This document shows, one piece after another, positions 3,457-37,561 of a stretch of 37,561 nucleotides of DNA (positions within the stretch are counted from its first letter, which is position 1; the number at the start of each line of letters is the position of its first letter). The stretch is from the NCBI GenBank assembly GCA_028696875.1, contig JAQVGF010000004.1:1-37561 (forward strand), written 5' to 3'. The notes below the pieces were generated by a model. It saw nothing but the letters and a program-made list of their open reading frames with translations. It did no database searches and was not told the origin of the DNA. Both the position numbers and the translations under genes were made by a program. The DNA is from Dysgonamonadaceae bacterium (GTDB lineage: Bacteria; Bacteroidota; Bacteroidia; Bacteroidales; Dysgonomonadaceae).

Positions 3457-4020
3457 ATGTTCGACTTTTTAGACACGTATCCCTATCTGCTGCCTTTCAT
3501 CATATTTTTCGGGAGAATTTTCGATGTTTCACTGGGTACCTTACGCATCATTTTTGTATCGAAAGGGGAAAGATTAAAAGCTCCAATCATCGGATTTTTC
3601 GAAGTTTTTATATGGGTAGTTATTATTTCACAAATTCTATCTCGTGCAAACGATATGATTGCCTATCTTTCATATGCAGGAGGTTATGCAGCAGGAAATT
3701 ATATCGGAATTTTACTTGAAAAACAGATTGCCTTTGGCATTGTTCTCTGCAGAGTTTATACGAACAAGCCGGGATTAAAGCTCGTAAATCTATTGAGTCT
3801 TAAGGGATTTGGTGCAACAATGATGCATGGTACCGGCTCGGTTAATGAAGTAGATATCATTGAAACAGTTTTTGATAGAAAAAAGCTAAAAGAAGTAACG
3901 GGTGTGATTCTGGAATTCGATAAAGAGGCATTTTATGTAATAGAAGATGTACGCACTCGTCAACGAGGAATTTTTCCTAAATCGTACAATTTATTGAAGC
4001 GTTGGCGACCGGGGAAATAA
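3457..4020 (+). CDS. UPF0316 membrane protein (DUF5698 plus DUF2179)
   Basis: A 187-residue integral membrane protein of the uncharacterised UPF0316 family. Hydrophobic segments occupy roughly residues 10-30, 44-62 and 66-90, with the family-typical GRIFDVSLGTLRII motif in the first. The C-terminal part from about residue 100 is soluble and corresponds to DUF2179 (segment containing GTGSVNEVDIIETVFDRK), a small alpha/beta domain also found in YitT-type proteins. It follows the aldolase gene by 11 bases and is likely in the same transcript. Biochemical function is unknown to me; family membership is clear. Confidence 0.88.
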   Translation: MFDFLDTYPYLLPFIIFFGRIFDVSLGTLRIIFVSKGERLKAPIIGFFEVFIWVVIISQILSRANDMIAYLSYAGGYAAGNYIGILLEKQIAFGIVLCRVYTNKPGLKLVNLLSLKGFGATMMHGTGSVNEVDIIETVFDRKKLKEVTGVILEFDKEAFYVIEDVRTRQRGIFPKSYNLLKRWRPGK

Positions 4021-4363
4021 AAAATAGAGCTCAACATGGTTAACTTGACATTAAACCCTTAGTAACAGGAGAATTAGCCCTGCAATCCGAACCTTATTAT
4101 CCCAGCTGGCGCAAATCTCTGGCTTGTGCCAAGGGCCAAAAGCCAACGACAGCGAGGGGAAAGTATTATTATTATGCTGTTTTTATCTGTAAATAAGAGT
4201 TTTGCATAAAAGGACAACTTTATACAAGAAAAATATATACAATTTGTTTTTTTATGATATAAGGAGTTTTTATATCTTTACCATATATAAACGAGTTAGC
4301 ATTCATGCAACAAAAAAACCTTCTCAAACTAAAGAGAATTGATTATTTTTGAAAGAAAACAAA
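4021..4363. other. Intergenic stretch entering the accessory island
   Basis: No coding sequence is visible. It holds one copy of a dispersed palindromic repeat (4105-4130) and, at 4291-4311, a short block (ACGAGTTAGCATTCATGCAA) resembling the block right of the RhuM gene at 5499-5517. The remainder is AT-rich. The conserved backbone gene order ends here. Confidence 0.5.
4105..4130 (+). repeat. Dispersed palindromic repeat, GCTGGCGCA...TTGTGCC family
   Basis: The block starts GCTGGCGCAAATCTCTGG and ends CTTGTGCC, an imperfect palindrome. Two further copies, facing each other, sit at 36947-36972 and 36987-37012. It resembles REP-like elements; function unknown. Confidence 0.6.
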
Positions 4364-19391: not shown

Positions 19392-19997
19392 ATGGGGAGG
19401 AAAAACATACTGTTATATTCATTTATTTTTCTGTTGCTTTTTTTTGGTTGTGATAAAGAGTCTACTCGTATTGATGATTTTTTAGTGGAATTTGCAATTG
19501 TAAAAAAGGTGGGCGATGATGTCACTTTTCGCTTGGATAACGGAACAATCTTAACTCCCGAGGGAACAACAAATTTAGAGATCGAGGATGGAAATCGAGT
19601 AATACTAAATTACACACCTTTGGAAAAAGGTGTTATAAAAGTAAATAGTGTTCGCCGAATTTTTATGGGCTCTATCAAGAAAGAAGGTTATCCGAATGAT
19701 GTAAAAACAGATCCGGTAAGAATTATTAGCGTTTGGGTTAGCGGCATCTTTTTAAACATCTCTTTTGAGGTAGATTATCACTCAAAATCGCATCGAGCCG
19801 GCTTATATAGAGATATGAGTGCTGACGAACAAACGCTTTATTTTAGCTATTCCCGCGAAGATGATCCTCTGGGAGCTCCTACCCTCTCTTATATGTCATT
19901 TAATCTGGAGAGTTTGCAAAAGAAAAACTTCACGGTTTTTATAAACACGTATGAGGGGCAAAGGAAGTTTGAGTTTGAAAAGGAGGGTGAAGAGTGA
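19392..19997 (+). CDS. NigD-like lipoprotein
   Basis: A 201-residue predicted lipoprotein: hydrophobic signal with lipobox ending at Cys20 (LLLFFGC). The layout of a small beta-barrel-like first half (DDVTFRLDNGTILTPEG) and a beta-sandwich second half agrees with NigD-like proteins, found almost only in Bacteroidales and of unknown function. It follows the acyltransferase by 18 bases and probably closes that operon. The last codons (EKEGEE) are encoded by the GAGGGTGAAGAGTGA word that also starts the adjoining 304-bp tandem array, so the natural C-terminus may have been replaced by repeat sequence. Confidence 0.65.
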   Translation: MGRKNILLYSFIFLLLFFGCDKESTRIDDFLVEFAIVKKVGDDVTFRLDNGTILTPEGTTNLEIEDGNRVILNYTPLEKGVIKVNSVRRIFMGSIKKEGYPNDVKTDPVRIISVWVSGIFLNISFEVDYHSKSHRAGLYRDMSADEQTLYFSYSREDDPLGAPTLSYMSFNLESLQKKNFTVFINTYEGQRKFEFEKEGEE

Positions 19998-20930
19998 AGA
20001 GTGGTATGGGGTGTGGGGTGTGGGGTAGCCGATATGATATTGAGATTGGTAGTGAACTTTGAACTTATTGAATTACAAATGACTAATTACGAATTACGAA
20101 TGAATGATCTCGATACTCGTTACAAGAATTAAATATTGCATTATGTTCCCAAATTCCGATTTTCGATTCTTGCATTTTAAAAACCTTATTTGGATTTGGA
20201 TTTGTATTTGAGCTTAGTAACCGTGAGAATCACCTCTAAACCTAACCTTATTACCTTATTAAATGGGGAGTGAGGAGTTAAGAGTGAAGAGTGGAAAGGG
20301 GTGTGGGGTATGAGTTTTGGGGTATGGGGTAGCCGATATGATATTGAGATTGGTAGTGAACTTTGAACTTATTGAATTACAAATGACTAATTACGAATTA
20401 CGAATGAATGATCTCGATACTCGTTACAAGAATTAAATATTGCATTATGTTCCCAAATTCCGATTTTCGATTCTTGCATTTTAAAAACCTTATTTGGATT
20501 TGGATTTGTATTTGAGCTTAGTAACCGTGAGAATCACCTCTAAACCTAACCTTATTACCTTATTAAATGGGGAGTGAGGAGTTAAGAGTGAAGAGTGGAA
20601 AGGGGTGTGGGGTATGAGTTTTGGGGTATGGGGTAGCCGATATGATATTGAGATTGGTAGTGGACTTACTCCTTATTGAATTACAAATGACTAATTACCA
20701 ATTACGAATGGTAAAATGCCGCGCGTTATGTATTATGAGTCTTAAATCCCCACTATTAACCTAATTCCGATTTTCGATTTTCGATTCCCGATTCCCGATT
20801 TTCGATTCTTGCATTAAAAAAACCTTATTTGGATTTGTATTTAGAGCTTAGTAACCGTGGGAATCACCTCTAAACCTAACCTTATTACCTTATTAAATGG
20901 GGAGTGAGAAGTGAGAAGTGAGGAGTGAAA
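19992..20930. repeat. Three-copy 304-bp tandem repeat built from microrepeats
   Basis: Units begin near 19992, 20282 and 20586. The anchor AGCCGATATGATATTGAGAT occurs at 20027, 20331 and 20635, an exact 304-base period. Units 1 and 2 look identical from the anchor onward; unit 1 lacks about 14 bases of the G-rich head, and unit 3 diverges in its middle. Each unit is a chain of short tandem words: GAGTGAGGAGT, GGGGTGT/GGGGTAT, ATTACGA, CGATTTT and GGATTTG. No open reading frame of note exists. Inverted ATTCGTAATTCGTAATTCGT at 20965-20985 mirrors the ATTACGA word. Confidence 0.92.
20298..20329 (+). other. Putative G-quadruplex motif in repeat unit 2
   Basis: Four GGGG tracts at 20298, 20305, 20319 and 20326 are separated by loops of 3, 10 and 3 bases. 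The same arrangement recurs in unit 3 at 20602-20633, while unit 1 keeps three GGGG tracts (20008-20025). It is located downstream of the NigD-like gene. Confidence 0.6.
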
Positions 20931-20992
20931 AGTTGATACGTGAAATTACCGTTGATAAAAAGGTCATTCGTAATTCGTAATTCGTAATTAAC

Positions 20993-21853
20993 CTACTCAC
21001 CACTCACCATCTCCTCTTCATCAATTTTAAAATCGATAGGCAAAATACATTTAACACTTACAGTTTCGTTGTTATTTTTGCCGGGTGTCCATTTTGGCAT
21101 CATGCTCAAAACGCGCAACGCTTCGTTGTCTAACTCGTTATCTAAACCGTTCACAATTTCCAGGTTTGAGATAGTACCATCTTTTCGGACAATGAATGCA
21201 CACAATATGCGACCTTGAATACCTTCTTGTTTGGCTCGCACGGGATATTGAATAAATTCTGAAAGAAATCTACCCAAACCTTCTTCTCCAGTAGGAAATT
21301 CGGGCATCTGATCCACGATGGTAAAAATCTCCTCGTTTGGATCGATTGGCATAACTTTGCGACTTTGTGCTCTTCTGGATGAACGAGCATTTTTATTTAA
21401 CTTAAAATACATGGGAACGTATTGGCGTGCTCTCACATTTTCCCCTTTATAGACTGCAGGTCGCCAGGCAGGCATCGATTTAATTATACGTAAAGCCTCT
21501 GCATCTAAAAGTGGATGAGCGCGATGCATAATTTCAAAGTTGGATAACGATCCATCTAATTCTACCACAAAATTATAGACCACCAATCCTTGTATATTTT
21601 TTTCTGCTGCCTCTCGCGGATATCTCAAAGATCTTGAAATAAAACGATTCATTTCGTGACTTCCACCCGTAAACATGGGGTCAATATCGGGAACTTCAAT
21701 TATTTTACCGGTCGGGCTGGGTGGATTTTGTTGTGCTATTAAATCGTGGGCTAATTCAATATTTTCTGTTGGCTTTGCTTCAATGTTTAAAACGTTTCCT
21801 GCAAACAGGATAATTGTAAACAGTCCGCATACCATCGTTGTGTTAACTCTCAT
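20993..21853 (-). CDS. Periplasmic protein with two TonB C-terminal domains
   Basis: A 286-residue protein with an N-terminal signal-like segment and two tandem TonB_C domains, about residues 55-155 (FTGGSHEMNRFISRSLRYP...GLVVYNFVVELDGS) and 180-280 (FPTGEEGLGRFLSEFIQYP...GRILCAFIVRKDGT). Classic TonB has one such domain on a membrane-anchored, proline-rich stalk and passes energy to outer-membrane receptors. This protein lacks the proline-rich stalk, so it may be a periplasmic adaptor. A TonB-dependent receptor gene lies on the same strand upstream. The final residues (MVSGE) are encoded by GTGAGTGGTGAGT, the same word as the neighbouring tandem array, so the 3' end may be repeat-derived. 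Confidence 0.85.
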   Translation of the reverse strand: MRVNTTMVCGLFTIILFAGNVLNIEAKPTENIELAHDLIAQQNPPSPTGKIIEVPDIDPMFTGGSHEMNRFISRSLRYPREAAEKNIQGLVVYNFVVELDGSLSNFEIMHRAHPLLDAEALRIIKSMPAWRPAVYKGENVRARQYVPMYFKLNKNARSSRRAQSRKVMPIDPNEEIFTIVDQMPEFPTGEEGLGRFLSEFIQYPVRAKQEGIQGRILCAFIVRKDGTISNLEIVNGLDNELDNEALRVLSMMPKWTPGKNNNETVSVKCILPIDFKIDEEEMVSGE

Positions 21854-24281: not shown

Positions 24282-24339
24282 AGTGAGGTTAGCATTTCAA
24301 AGTGGGACTCAATTCTTAATTCTTAATTCTTAATTTTTT

Positions 24340-25764
24340 TCATTCCACCGGAATTAGCCTCACAATCCTACCCGGCTGTTCCAGTCCGATGTAAACCAAC
24401 CCATCGGGACTCATTACAACATTTCTTACGCGACCAATTCCTTCAACTAATTTTTCTTGATGAACCACCTTTTGCCCCTCTAATACAATTCGTTCAATGT
24501 AATCAAATCTGAGAGAACCAACAAGGATGTTATTCTCCCAATTTTTGAATCTCTCTCCAGTCACAAAAGTCATTCCGCAAGGAGCAATTGAGGGAGTCCA
24601 TTGAATAACGGGTTGTTCCATGCCTTCTTTGTGTGTTAATTCCGTTAAAACTGTACCATCATAATTTTTACCATACGATATAACAGGCCAACCGTAATTT
24701 AAACCGGGTTTTATCAAATTTAGTTCATCTCCGCCCATTGGACCATGTTCTGTTTCCCACAAATCACCTGTTTCAGGATGAAAGCTGTTGCCTTGTGGAT
24801 TTCTATTGCCATAGCAATAGATAGATTTTATTGCACCGGGAGTATCCACAAACGGATTGTCTACGGGAATTCTTCCATCGTCGTGAATTCTGTGTATTTT
24901 CCCATTGGAGTTGTCCAGCTTTTGTGGGAAATCAAAATGTTGTCCTCGTTCTCCTATTCCAAAGTACAGGTATCCTTTGCCATCGAAAGCCAATTTGCAA
25001 CCAAAATGATGTCCTCTATCCGTATCCGGAGTTCCTTTGTACAAAACCTCTTGATCAATAAGTTTATTGCCTTGCAAACGGGCACGCATCACTGCGGTAT
25101 TACCAATCCTCCTGTCGCTCTCTGTGTTTAACGCTGAATAAGAGATATAAATCCATCCATTTTCATCATAATCAGGATGAAGCGCTAAGTCTAACAATCC
25201 ACCTTGACCAAATGCCATTATGGGTGGTAAACCTTCTATTGGAGGTGATAATTCCCCATTGGAAAAAGTGTGCAGGGTGCCACTTCTTTCAGAAATCAGT
25301 AAATCACCATTTGGTAAAAATGCAAGACCCCACGGAACATCCAATCCCAACACAACAGTATCCATCACAAAACGATGAACCTCAGATTCTATAATTTGAT
25401 CGGCATGAACACTTGGTTTCAATAAATCTCTATCTGTAGGAATTCCTTTTCTAACATAGTGTGCTAATGCTTCAATTTCAGAATCAGAAAATGCTTTTTC
25501 GAAAGCAGGCATTCCAATTTCTATTATTCCATTTTTAATGCTCTCCTCAATTGAAGTTGTCCCTTCTTCATCCATCCATACTTTATTCTCAAATTTCTCC
25601 AGATTATCGCCATGACACCCGGCACAATAATTTACATAGTTTTCTGAAGCAACTCTCTCTTTATTGTTGCGCTGTTGAGAGGTAGAATTACACGATAAAT
25701 AGCCAATTAAAGTAACAAACAGTAGTAGTGCAATAGTTGCAAAATAATCTTTGGAAGTTTTCAT
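24340..25764 (-). CDS. Cytochrome c-PQQ-type sugar dehydrogenase fusion lipoprotein
   Basis: A 474-residue protein with a lipobox ending at Cys25 (GYLSC), a c-type haem site NYCAGCHG (Cys47, Cys50, His51) with likely axial Met85 in EIGMPAF, and a six-bladed glucose/sorbosone dehydrogenase (GSDH) propeller from about 135 to the end (VPWGLAFLPNGDLLISER, GIGERG, GNRNPQG, EHGPMGGDELNLI, LNYGWPVISYG). Such enzymes oxidise aldose sugars with pyrroloquinoline quinone and pass electrons to a cytochrome; the fused domain could be the first acceptor. It acts in the periplasm or at the outer membrane. Sugar substrate and cofactor status are inferred. It has its own TATATTTG promoter. Confidence 0.9.
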   Translation of the reverse strand: MKTSKDYFATIALLLFVTLIGYLSCNSTSQQRNNKERVASENYVNYCAGCHGDNLEKFENKVWMDEEGTTSIEESIKNGIIEIGMPAFEKAFSDSEIEALAHYVRKGIPTDRDLLKPSVHADQIIESEVHRFVMDTVVLGLDVPWGLAFLPNGDLLISERSGTLHTFSNGELSPPIEGLPPIMAFGQGGLLDLALHPDYDENGWIYISYSALNTESDRRIGNTAVMRARLQGNKLIDQEVLYKGTPDTDRGHHFGCKLAFDGKGYLYFGIGERGQHFDFPQKLDNSNGKIHRIHDDGRIPVDNPFVDTPGAIKSIYCYGNRNPQGNSFHPETGDLWETEHGPMGGDELNLIKPGLNYGWPVISYGKNYDGTVLTELTHKEGMEQPVIQWTPSIAPCGMTFVTGERFKNWENNILVGSLRFDYIERIVLEGQKVVHQEKLVEGIGRVRNVVMSPDGLVYIGLEQPGRIVRLIPVE

Positions 25765-37012: not shown

Positions 37013-37028
37013 CAGGGATTTTTTATCT

Positions 37029-37450
37029 CGCTAAGATGATAAGAACGCAAAGTGTTTATTTAATTGATAAAAAGAAGTTCAATAAATTCTCTTTTGCGTT
37101 CTCCGCAACTTTGCGTGATACATTCTTTTGTTTTCTCTCTCGCTAAGATGATAAGAACGCAAAGTGTTTATTTAATTGATAAAAAGAAGTTCAATAAATT
37201 CTCTTTTGCGTTCTCCGCAACTTTGCGTGATACATTCTTTTGTTTTCTCTCTCGCTAAGACGCTAAGAACGCCAAGTCTTTCTTTAAATTGATAAAAAGA
37301 AGTTCAATAAATTCTCTTTTGCGTTCTCCGCAACTTTGCGTGATACATTCTTTTGTTTCTCTCTCGCTAAGACGCTAAGAACGCAAAGTGTTTATTTAAT
37401 TGGAAAAAAGAAGTTCAATAAATTCTCTTTTGCGTTCTCCGCGATTTTGT
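37029..37450. repeat. 112-bp tandem repeat array, nearly four units
   Basis: CGCTAAGA marks unit starts at 37029, 37141, 37253 and 37365, an exact 112-base period. Each unit reads CGCTAAGATGATAAGAACGC (or the variant CGCTAAGACGCTAAGAACGC in units 3 and 4), AAAGTGTTTATTTAATTG, then AAGTTCAATAAATTCTCTTT and GCGTTCTCCGCAACTTTGCG. The first and last blocks are partly complementary (CGCAAAGT/ACTTTGCG). The last unit decays near 37450. No gene is seen from 36358 to the window end; an apparent 64-codon frame inside is a by-product of the repeat. Confidence 0.92.
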
Positions 37451-37561
37451 GTGAGATAAGATATCTTTTTTGCTAAAACATGATAGAAGCTAAGAATCTC
37501 ATCATAAGTTATTCGCAATTCGGGTTATTCCATCTTTGATTAACGCCTCATTAAAGTTGAT

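Follow-up and report, generated by a model that had tools for sequence, protein, structure and literature searches.

Between two convergent genes of a Dysgonamonadaceae bacterium lie three head-to-tail, non-coding units of about 304 bp (positions 19984–20935 of the window, by which we mean the whole 37,561-nucleotide stretch analysed here, part of contig C76). The array is probably a local tandem triplication of a composite repeat that is dispersed in the same genome and joins heptamer microsatellites to the arm of an inverted repeat linked to Y1 transposases. This composite unites two kinds of bacterial repeat that were previously described apart. Array and unit counts were read from a draft assembly (2.35 Mb, 258 contigs, 86% complete), and copy numbers taken from it are provisional because several composite copies elsewhere in it break off where a contig ends or a run of 100 N begins, in line with the caution about copy number in the earlier note on this DNA.

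Structure of the array

Tandem Repeats Finder (TRF) reports a period of 304 over 20003–20710 (2.3 copies, 97% matches, score 1346), and BLAST with unit 2 as the query returns copies at 19984–20277 (95%), 20278–20581 (100%), and 20582–20911 (80%), so the 304-bp tandem array that had been described from the letters alone is real. With GGTAGCCGATATG as the point of reference, units 1, 2, and 3 begin at 20024, 20328, and 20632. Shifted against itself by 304 positions, the sequence matches exactly over 338 bases (20021–20358); units 1 and 2 are therefore identical (304/304), their sole difference being the heptamer block that precedes unit 1. This exact run agrees with the earlier note, which had held the two units to be identical past the head through very recent duplication or conversion and had rightly called unit 3 diverged (about 80% alike to unit 2 by BLAST). 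The features of the locus are as follows:

19392–19997, plus strand: NigD-like lipoprotein gene (NigD family matches)
19984–20023, plus strand: heptamer block ahead of unit 1 (GAAGAGT, GGGGTGT; word search, TRF)
20024–20327, plus strand: unit 1, same sequence as unit 2 (exact match over 338 bp at lag 304)
20085–20101, plus strand: AATTACG heptamer tract of unit 1
20171–20263, plus strand: solo arm of the Y1-linked inverted repeat, unit 1 (profile match, 87 bits)
20328–20631, plus strand: unit 2 (lag-304 comparison)
20389–20405, plus strand: AATTACG heptamer tract of unit 2
20475–20567, plus strand: solo arm, unit 2 (profile match, 87 bits)
20632–20935, plus strand: unit 3, diverged, about 80% (BLAST, lag comparison)
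20768–20807, plus strand: CGATTTT heptamer tract, longest in unit 3 (TRF)
20809–20897, plus strand: solo arm, unit 3 (profile match, 93 bits)
20966–20989, minus strand: AATTACG heptamer tract immediately past the minus-strand gene's stop
20993–21853, minus strand: gene with TonB C-terminal domains (TonB_C), convergent with the lipoprotein gene

Every unit is bounded by heptamer blocks (before unit 1, at both junctions, and after unit 3) and contains others. The nested repeat levels noticed before are real, and the five short words then listed are all present, each corresponding to a 7-base period or part of one. The minus-strand AATTACG tract lies just beyond the end first given for the array (19992–20930). 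As to whether the unit is a known database element, on which the earlier note had made its reading depend, the answer is divided: its parts are of recognisable kinds, but the whole unit has no match in Rfam at the gathering score (the window gives two tRNAs only), in plasmids, or in phages. A plasmid or phage origin was rejected on the latter result and because no viral contig carries the arm pattern. A second tandem array lies near the contig end (window 37019–37454; period 112, 3.9 copies, 94% matches) and has GCGTTCTC/CTTTGCGT motifs.

A dispersed composite repeat

BLAST of unit 2 against its own genome yields 44 matches, and a profile built from the three array units and one other copy identifies a further 17 loci (E≤3e-10), all collinear with the array unit, though mostly partial. 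The genome search that had been suggested thus finds the unit at no fewer than these 17 other places, so it is not private to this site, and it is these collinear copies that lead us to read the array as a local triplication of something dispersed. A tandem second copy is also visible at two of the loci (L018 and L020).

The composite has a fixed order. It starts with purine-rich heptamers (GAAGAGT, AAGAATT) and GGTGTGA-type heptamers, then runs through GATATAGAGATTGATAGTGAAC, which is not repetitive; its middle consists of AATTACG heptamers, another stretch without repeats (GATACACATTACAAGAATTAAA), and CGATTTT-type heptamers; and it ends with a tail of about 95 bp with ACCTTA motifs, after which purine-rich heptamers appear once more. 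Within the arm at several loci (L009:1361-1450 and L018:2977-3066, with parts in L024, L014, and L208) sits a sequence of about 90 bp (TATATAACTAAATATAAC...GTTGAAAATCGYGGGG) that appears to be another small repeat inserted there.

The site in related genomes

The last codons and stop of the lipoprotein gene fall inside the first heptamer tract (run 19987–20003). The same convergent gene pair is found in ten relatives with an intergenic gap of 22–205 bp, and in two members of the same genus the conserved gene ends are 57 and 25 bp apart. A member of another genus (L043) carries its own, different heptamer array, made of TGACACC units, in the orthologous gap; the site has therefore gained heptamers more than once. 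At a second composite site (L012), the corresponding gap of a congener is without the composite.

The arm and its inverted repeat

The 3′ third of each unit is a single arm of about 95 bp, with ACCTTA motifs, of an inverted repeat of about 150 bp. The pattern CTTAGTAA-N22-45-CCTTATTANCTTATTAAA occurs in 36 stretches among 11.3 million genome contigs, mostly from Bacteroidales, Paludibacter, and Ignavibacteria, with single contigs of other phyla that are possibly misbinned. In many of these stretches an inverted copy comes after the tail, and the two form a palindrome of about 150 bp. Such palindromes fold as DNA at −18 to −33 kcal/mol, whereas the solo tails of the window, at −2.6 and −4.1, do not fold. 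A complete palindrome, with both arms joined, is also present in the genome under study, at C79. The palindrome looks like a gene-less form of a Y1 element: joined arms without a gene, as seen elsewhere and at C79, have both of the terminal repeats expected of a MITE, whereas the window units have one arm each.

Two further ideas about the arm were rejected. It does not always follow genes in one direction, as some arms stand in a divergent or an antisense context; and compensatory changes do not prove a folded hairpin, the variable inner pair being complementary in 9 of 15 palindromes and non-complementary in the other 6, for which reason we claim inverted termini and not a conserved fold. 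We found no earlier report of the arm in the open-licence literature. The window also contains a weak partial arm (21 bits; 4051–4101), 31 bp past the stop of a gene ending at 4020. Paludibacter sp. 221 has two identical full palindromes 587 bp apart (L126:253-410 and 840-997) inside a longer duplicated stretch.

Link to a Y1 transposase

A short IS200-like Y1 transposase gene (PF01797) adjoins the tail in several of the pattern-bearing stretches. A search by the transposase protein alone gave 14 further loci (63–76% identity), and arms lie within 600 bp of 13 of these 14 cognate genes, typically with a sense arm immediately ahead of the start codon and an inverted one directly behind the stop; among other Y1 loci, an arm is present at only 1 of 30, more than 500 bp away. 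One example of the cognate gene is that of Paludibacter sp. 221 (NZ_QVMH01000040, locus L123). Across 295 genomes of the order, the strict arm pattern is found in 12 and the cognate transposase in 14, and the two coincide in 4 where 0.57 would be expected (p=0.0013, relatedness uncontrolled). On both grounds—the flanking of cognate but not other Y1 genes and the co-occurrence—we identify the arm as the terminal repeat of a Y1 element family. The earlier statement that no known element explains the repeats therefore gives way: the 3′ third is a transposase-linked inverted-repeat arm of many Bacteroidota and Ignavibacteria, and the words belong to heptameric microsatellites, a described class that is common at gene ends here.

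The cognate transposase has the active-site motif Y---Q--HH (YILNQKEHH or close) and a Y1_Tnp domain, by which we provisionally assign it to TnpA-Y1 subclass 1.2 of a 2018 survey (PMC6006769). It shares with that subclass the motif, a length of about 150 aa, occurrence in Bacteroidetes, and low copy number; the survey places the subclass mostly in Cyanobacteria and Bacteroidetes. The difference is that subclass 1.2 was published as lacking REP sequences and generally lacking terminal structures (PMC6006769), whereas the present clade has them. Likewise, 11 of 27 other Y---Q--HH loci (two of which are the same place) have inverted flanks that exceed the 99% level for mismatched pairs. Individual genes of this type (L177:1489-1908 plus flanks; L142/L179) have long, near-perfect inverted flanks of their own, of unrelated sequence, so the whole subclass may consist of such elements.

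Two known systems invite comparison. REP/REPIN sequences with their RAYTs (TnpA-REP; PMC6006769, PMC3116915) are likewise inverted repeats, short and intergenic, which flank a Y1 gene and are also dispersed without it; the arm flanks cognate genes in other genomes, but not in the present one, where no cognate gene was found. The arms differ from REPs in being long and A+T-rich and in having no GT[AG]G foot, and a solo arm does not fold; moreover, the RAYT motif is that of class 2, Y---NP, and not of the Y---Q--HH type. The terminal-inverted-repeat Y1 transposases (TIRYT; PMC3733652) also combine Y1 genes with long inverted repeats and have gene-free copies, but most of them are assigned to subclass 2.1 and carry an HTH domain at the C terminus (PMC6006769).

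The cognate transposase gene is present in a congener (G001) and was not found in the 86% complete draft of the present genome. This result weighs against our explanation and lends support to a possible though unlikely alternative, namely that microsatellite growth alone (slippage and segmental duplication, with spread by recombination between tracts) produced the array, the arm being a passive passenger. Heptamers are indeed far more widespread than arms in this genome, and the units carry single arms, as that alternative would have it; the tie between the arm family and Y1 genes and the complete palindrome at C79 speak against it.

Heptamer tracts at gene ends

The 7-base periodicity is not due to chance: own-genome loci around the matches (220 kb) contain 43 lag-7 runs of 12 or more matches, compared with 0 in Markov shuffles, and the other lags from 4 to 12 give at most 4 each. 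Placement was surveyed in 269 kb of the organism's own DNA chosen away from unit matches, genome-wide figures being those of the searches and this sample. Here, a 7-periodic tract stands after 15 of 146 non-coding gene ends (60 nt past the gene), ahead of 4 of 150 gene starts, and inside 0 of 222 gene bodies, and other lags from 4 to 12 account for at most 2 each; genes in these counts are open reading frames called by a simple script, individual ends of which may be wrong, and the heptamer threshold, like the arm profile, was defined within the present analysis. The tracts commonly begin at or within the stop codon, and their coding strand is rich in G (G minus C averages +12.5, versus +1.1 at other gene ends), with G exceeding C in 33 of 41 tracts from own loci, selected and unselected. 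An AAGAATT tract at 24311–24335, 4 bp past the stop of a minus-strand gene (24340–25764), makes that gene end the third in the window to bear heptamers.

The class is already known. GGGNATC heptamers of Xanthomonas and Nostoc, which are mostly transcribed, are found on the coding strand within 50 bp past a stop, or on the non-coding strand ahead of a start (PMC4692102), and TAACTGA heptamers have been described from Beggiatoaceae, Cyanobacteria, and some Bacteroidetes (PMC4679880). The present tracts share with these heptameric SSRs (PMC4692102, PMC4679880) the period of 7, the intergenic position, and the multitude of words and loci, and with the former also the strand-dependent placement by stops and starts. 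They differ in that distinct words here stand in fixed order inside a dispersed composite with a transposon arm, and in that some words, AATTACG among them, do not form G-quadruplexes. What is lineage-specific is their abundance in this genome: three exact AATTACG units in a row occur in only 7 of 297 Bacteroidota genomes sampled.

The strong bias towards gene ends and the coding strand, as in the mostly transcribed repeats of Xanthomonas and Nostoc (PMC4692102), would suit a selected 3′-end element, in which G-rich sense heptamers act in the mRNA 3′ end (termination, nuclease protection, or G-quadruplex formation) and the array is an enlarged version. We think this improbable, given that tracts stand at only about 10% of non-coding gene ends, that the words vary from gene to gene, that none of the 21 gene ends seen at congener loci has a tract, and that relatives have no tracts at the present site.

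Proposed origin of the array

Under the triplication reading, heptamer tracts would grow after stop codons through slippage, and a Y1-family arm would have joined them, the joined unit then spreading to at least 18 loci. The arm may have arrived or spread via a Y1 transposase acting in trans; the composite could also have spread by recombination between repeats, which would leave the same picture. At the present site, the unit may have been tripled by unequal exchange or slippage between the bounding heptamer blocks, the last step presumably being recent; we infer this from the similar blocks on both sides of each unit, which are the expected trace of such a process. That single arms do not fold places mobilisation of the units by a transposase in doubt, and a target-site signature was not found.

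It is quite improbable that assembly gave a false unit number, with the exact duplication of units 1 and 2 made by the assembler: the 338-bp exact repeat is longer than usual short reads, and N runs and contig ends do fall inside such repeats at other loci, but the divergence of unit 3 from unit 2, together with the unique genes on both flanks, supports at least two units well, and the composite is present at many other loci.

Implications

There is no consensus on how bacterial heptamer repeats arise or what they do, nor an explanation of why they favour one strand and stop codons. Heptamers and Y1 subclass 1.2 have both been reported mainly from Bacteroidetes and Cyanobacteria, which raises the very doubtful prospect that heptamer tracts past stops and subclass 1.2 elements are causally linked, through a process at single-stranded DNA or transcript 3′ ends that would build sense-strand arrays joined to arms, its agent being the Y1 enzyme or a polymerase copying short words. 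A genome with heptamers at about one in ten of its non-coding gene ends is a good testing ground for questions of this kind. For subclass 1.2, which has been listed without a cognate repeat, the arm gives one clade a concrete DNA target, so that binding and cleavage become directly testable.
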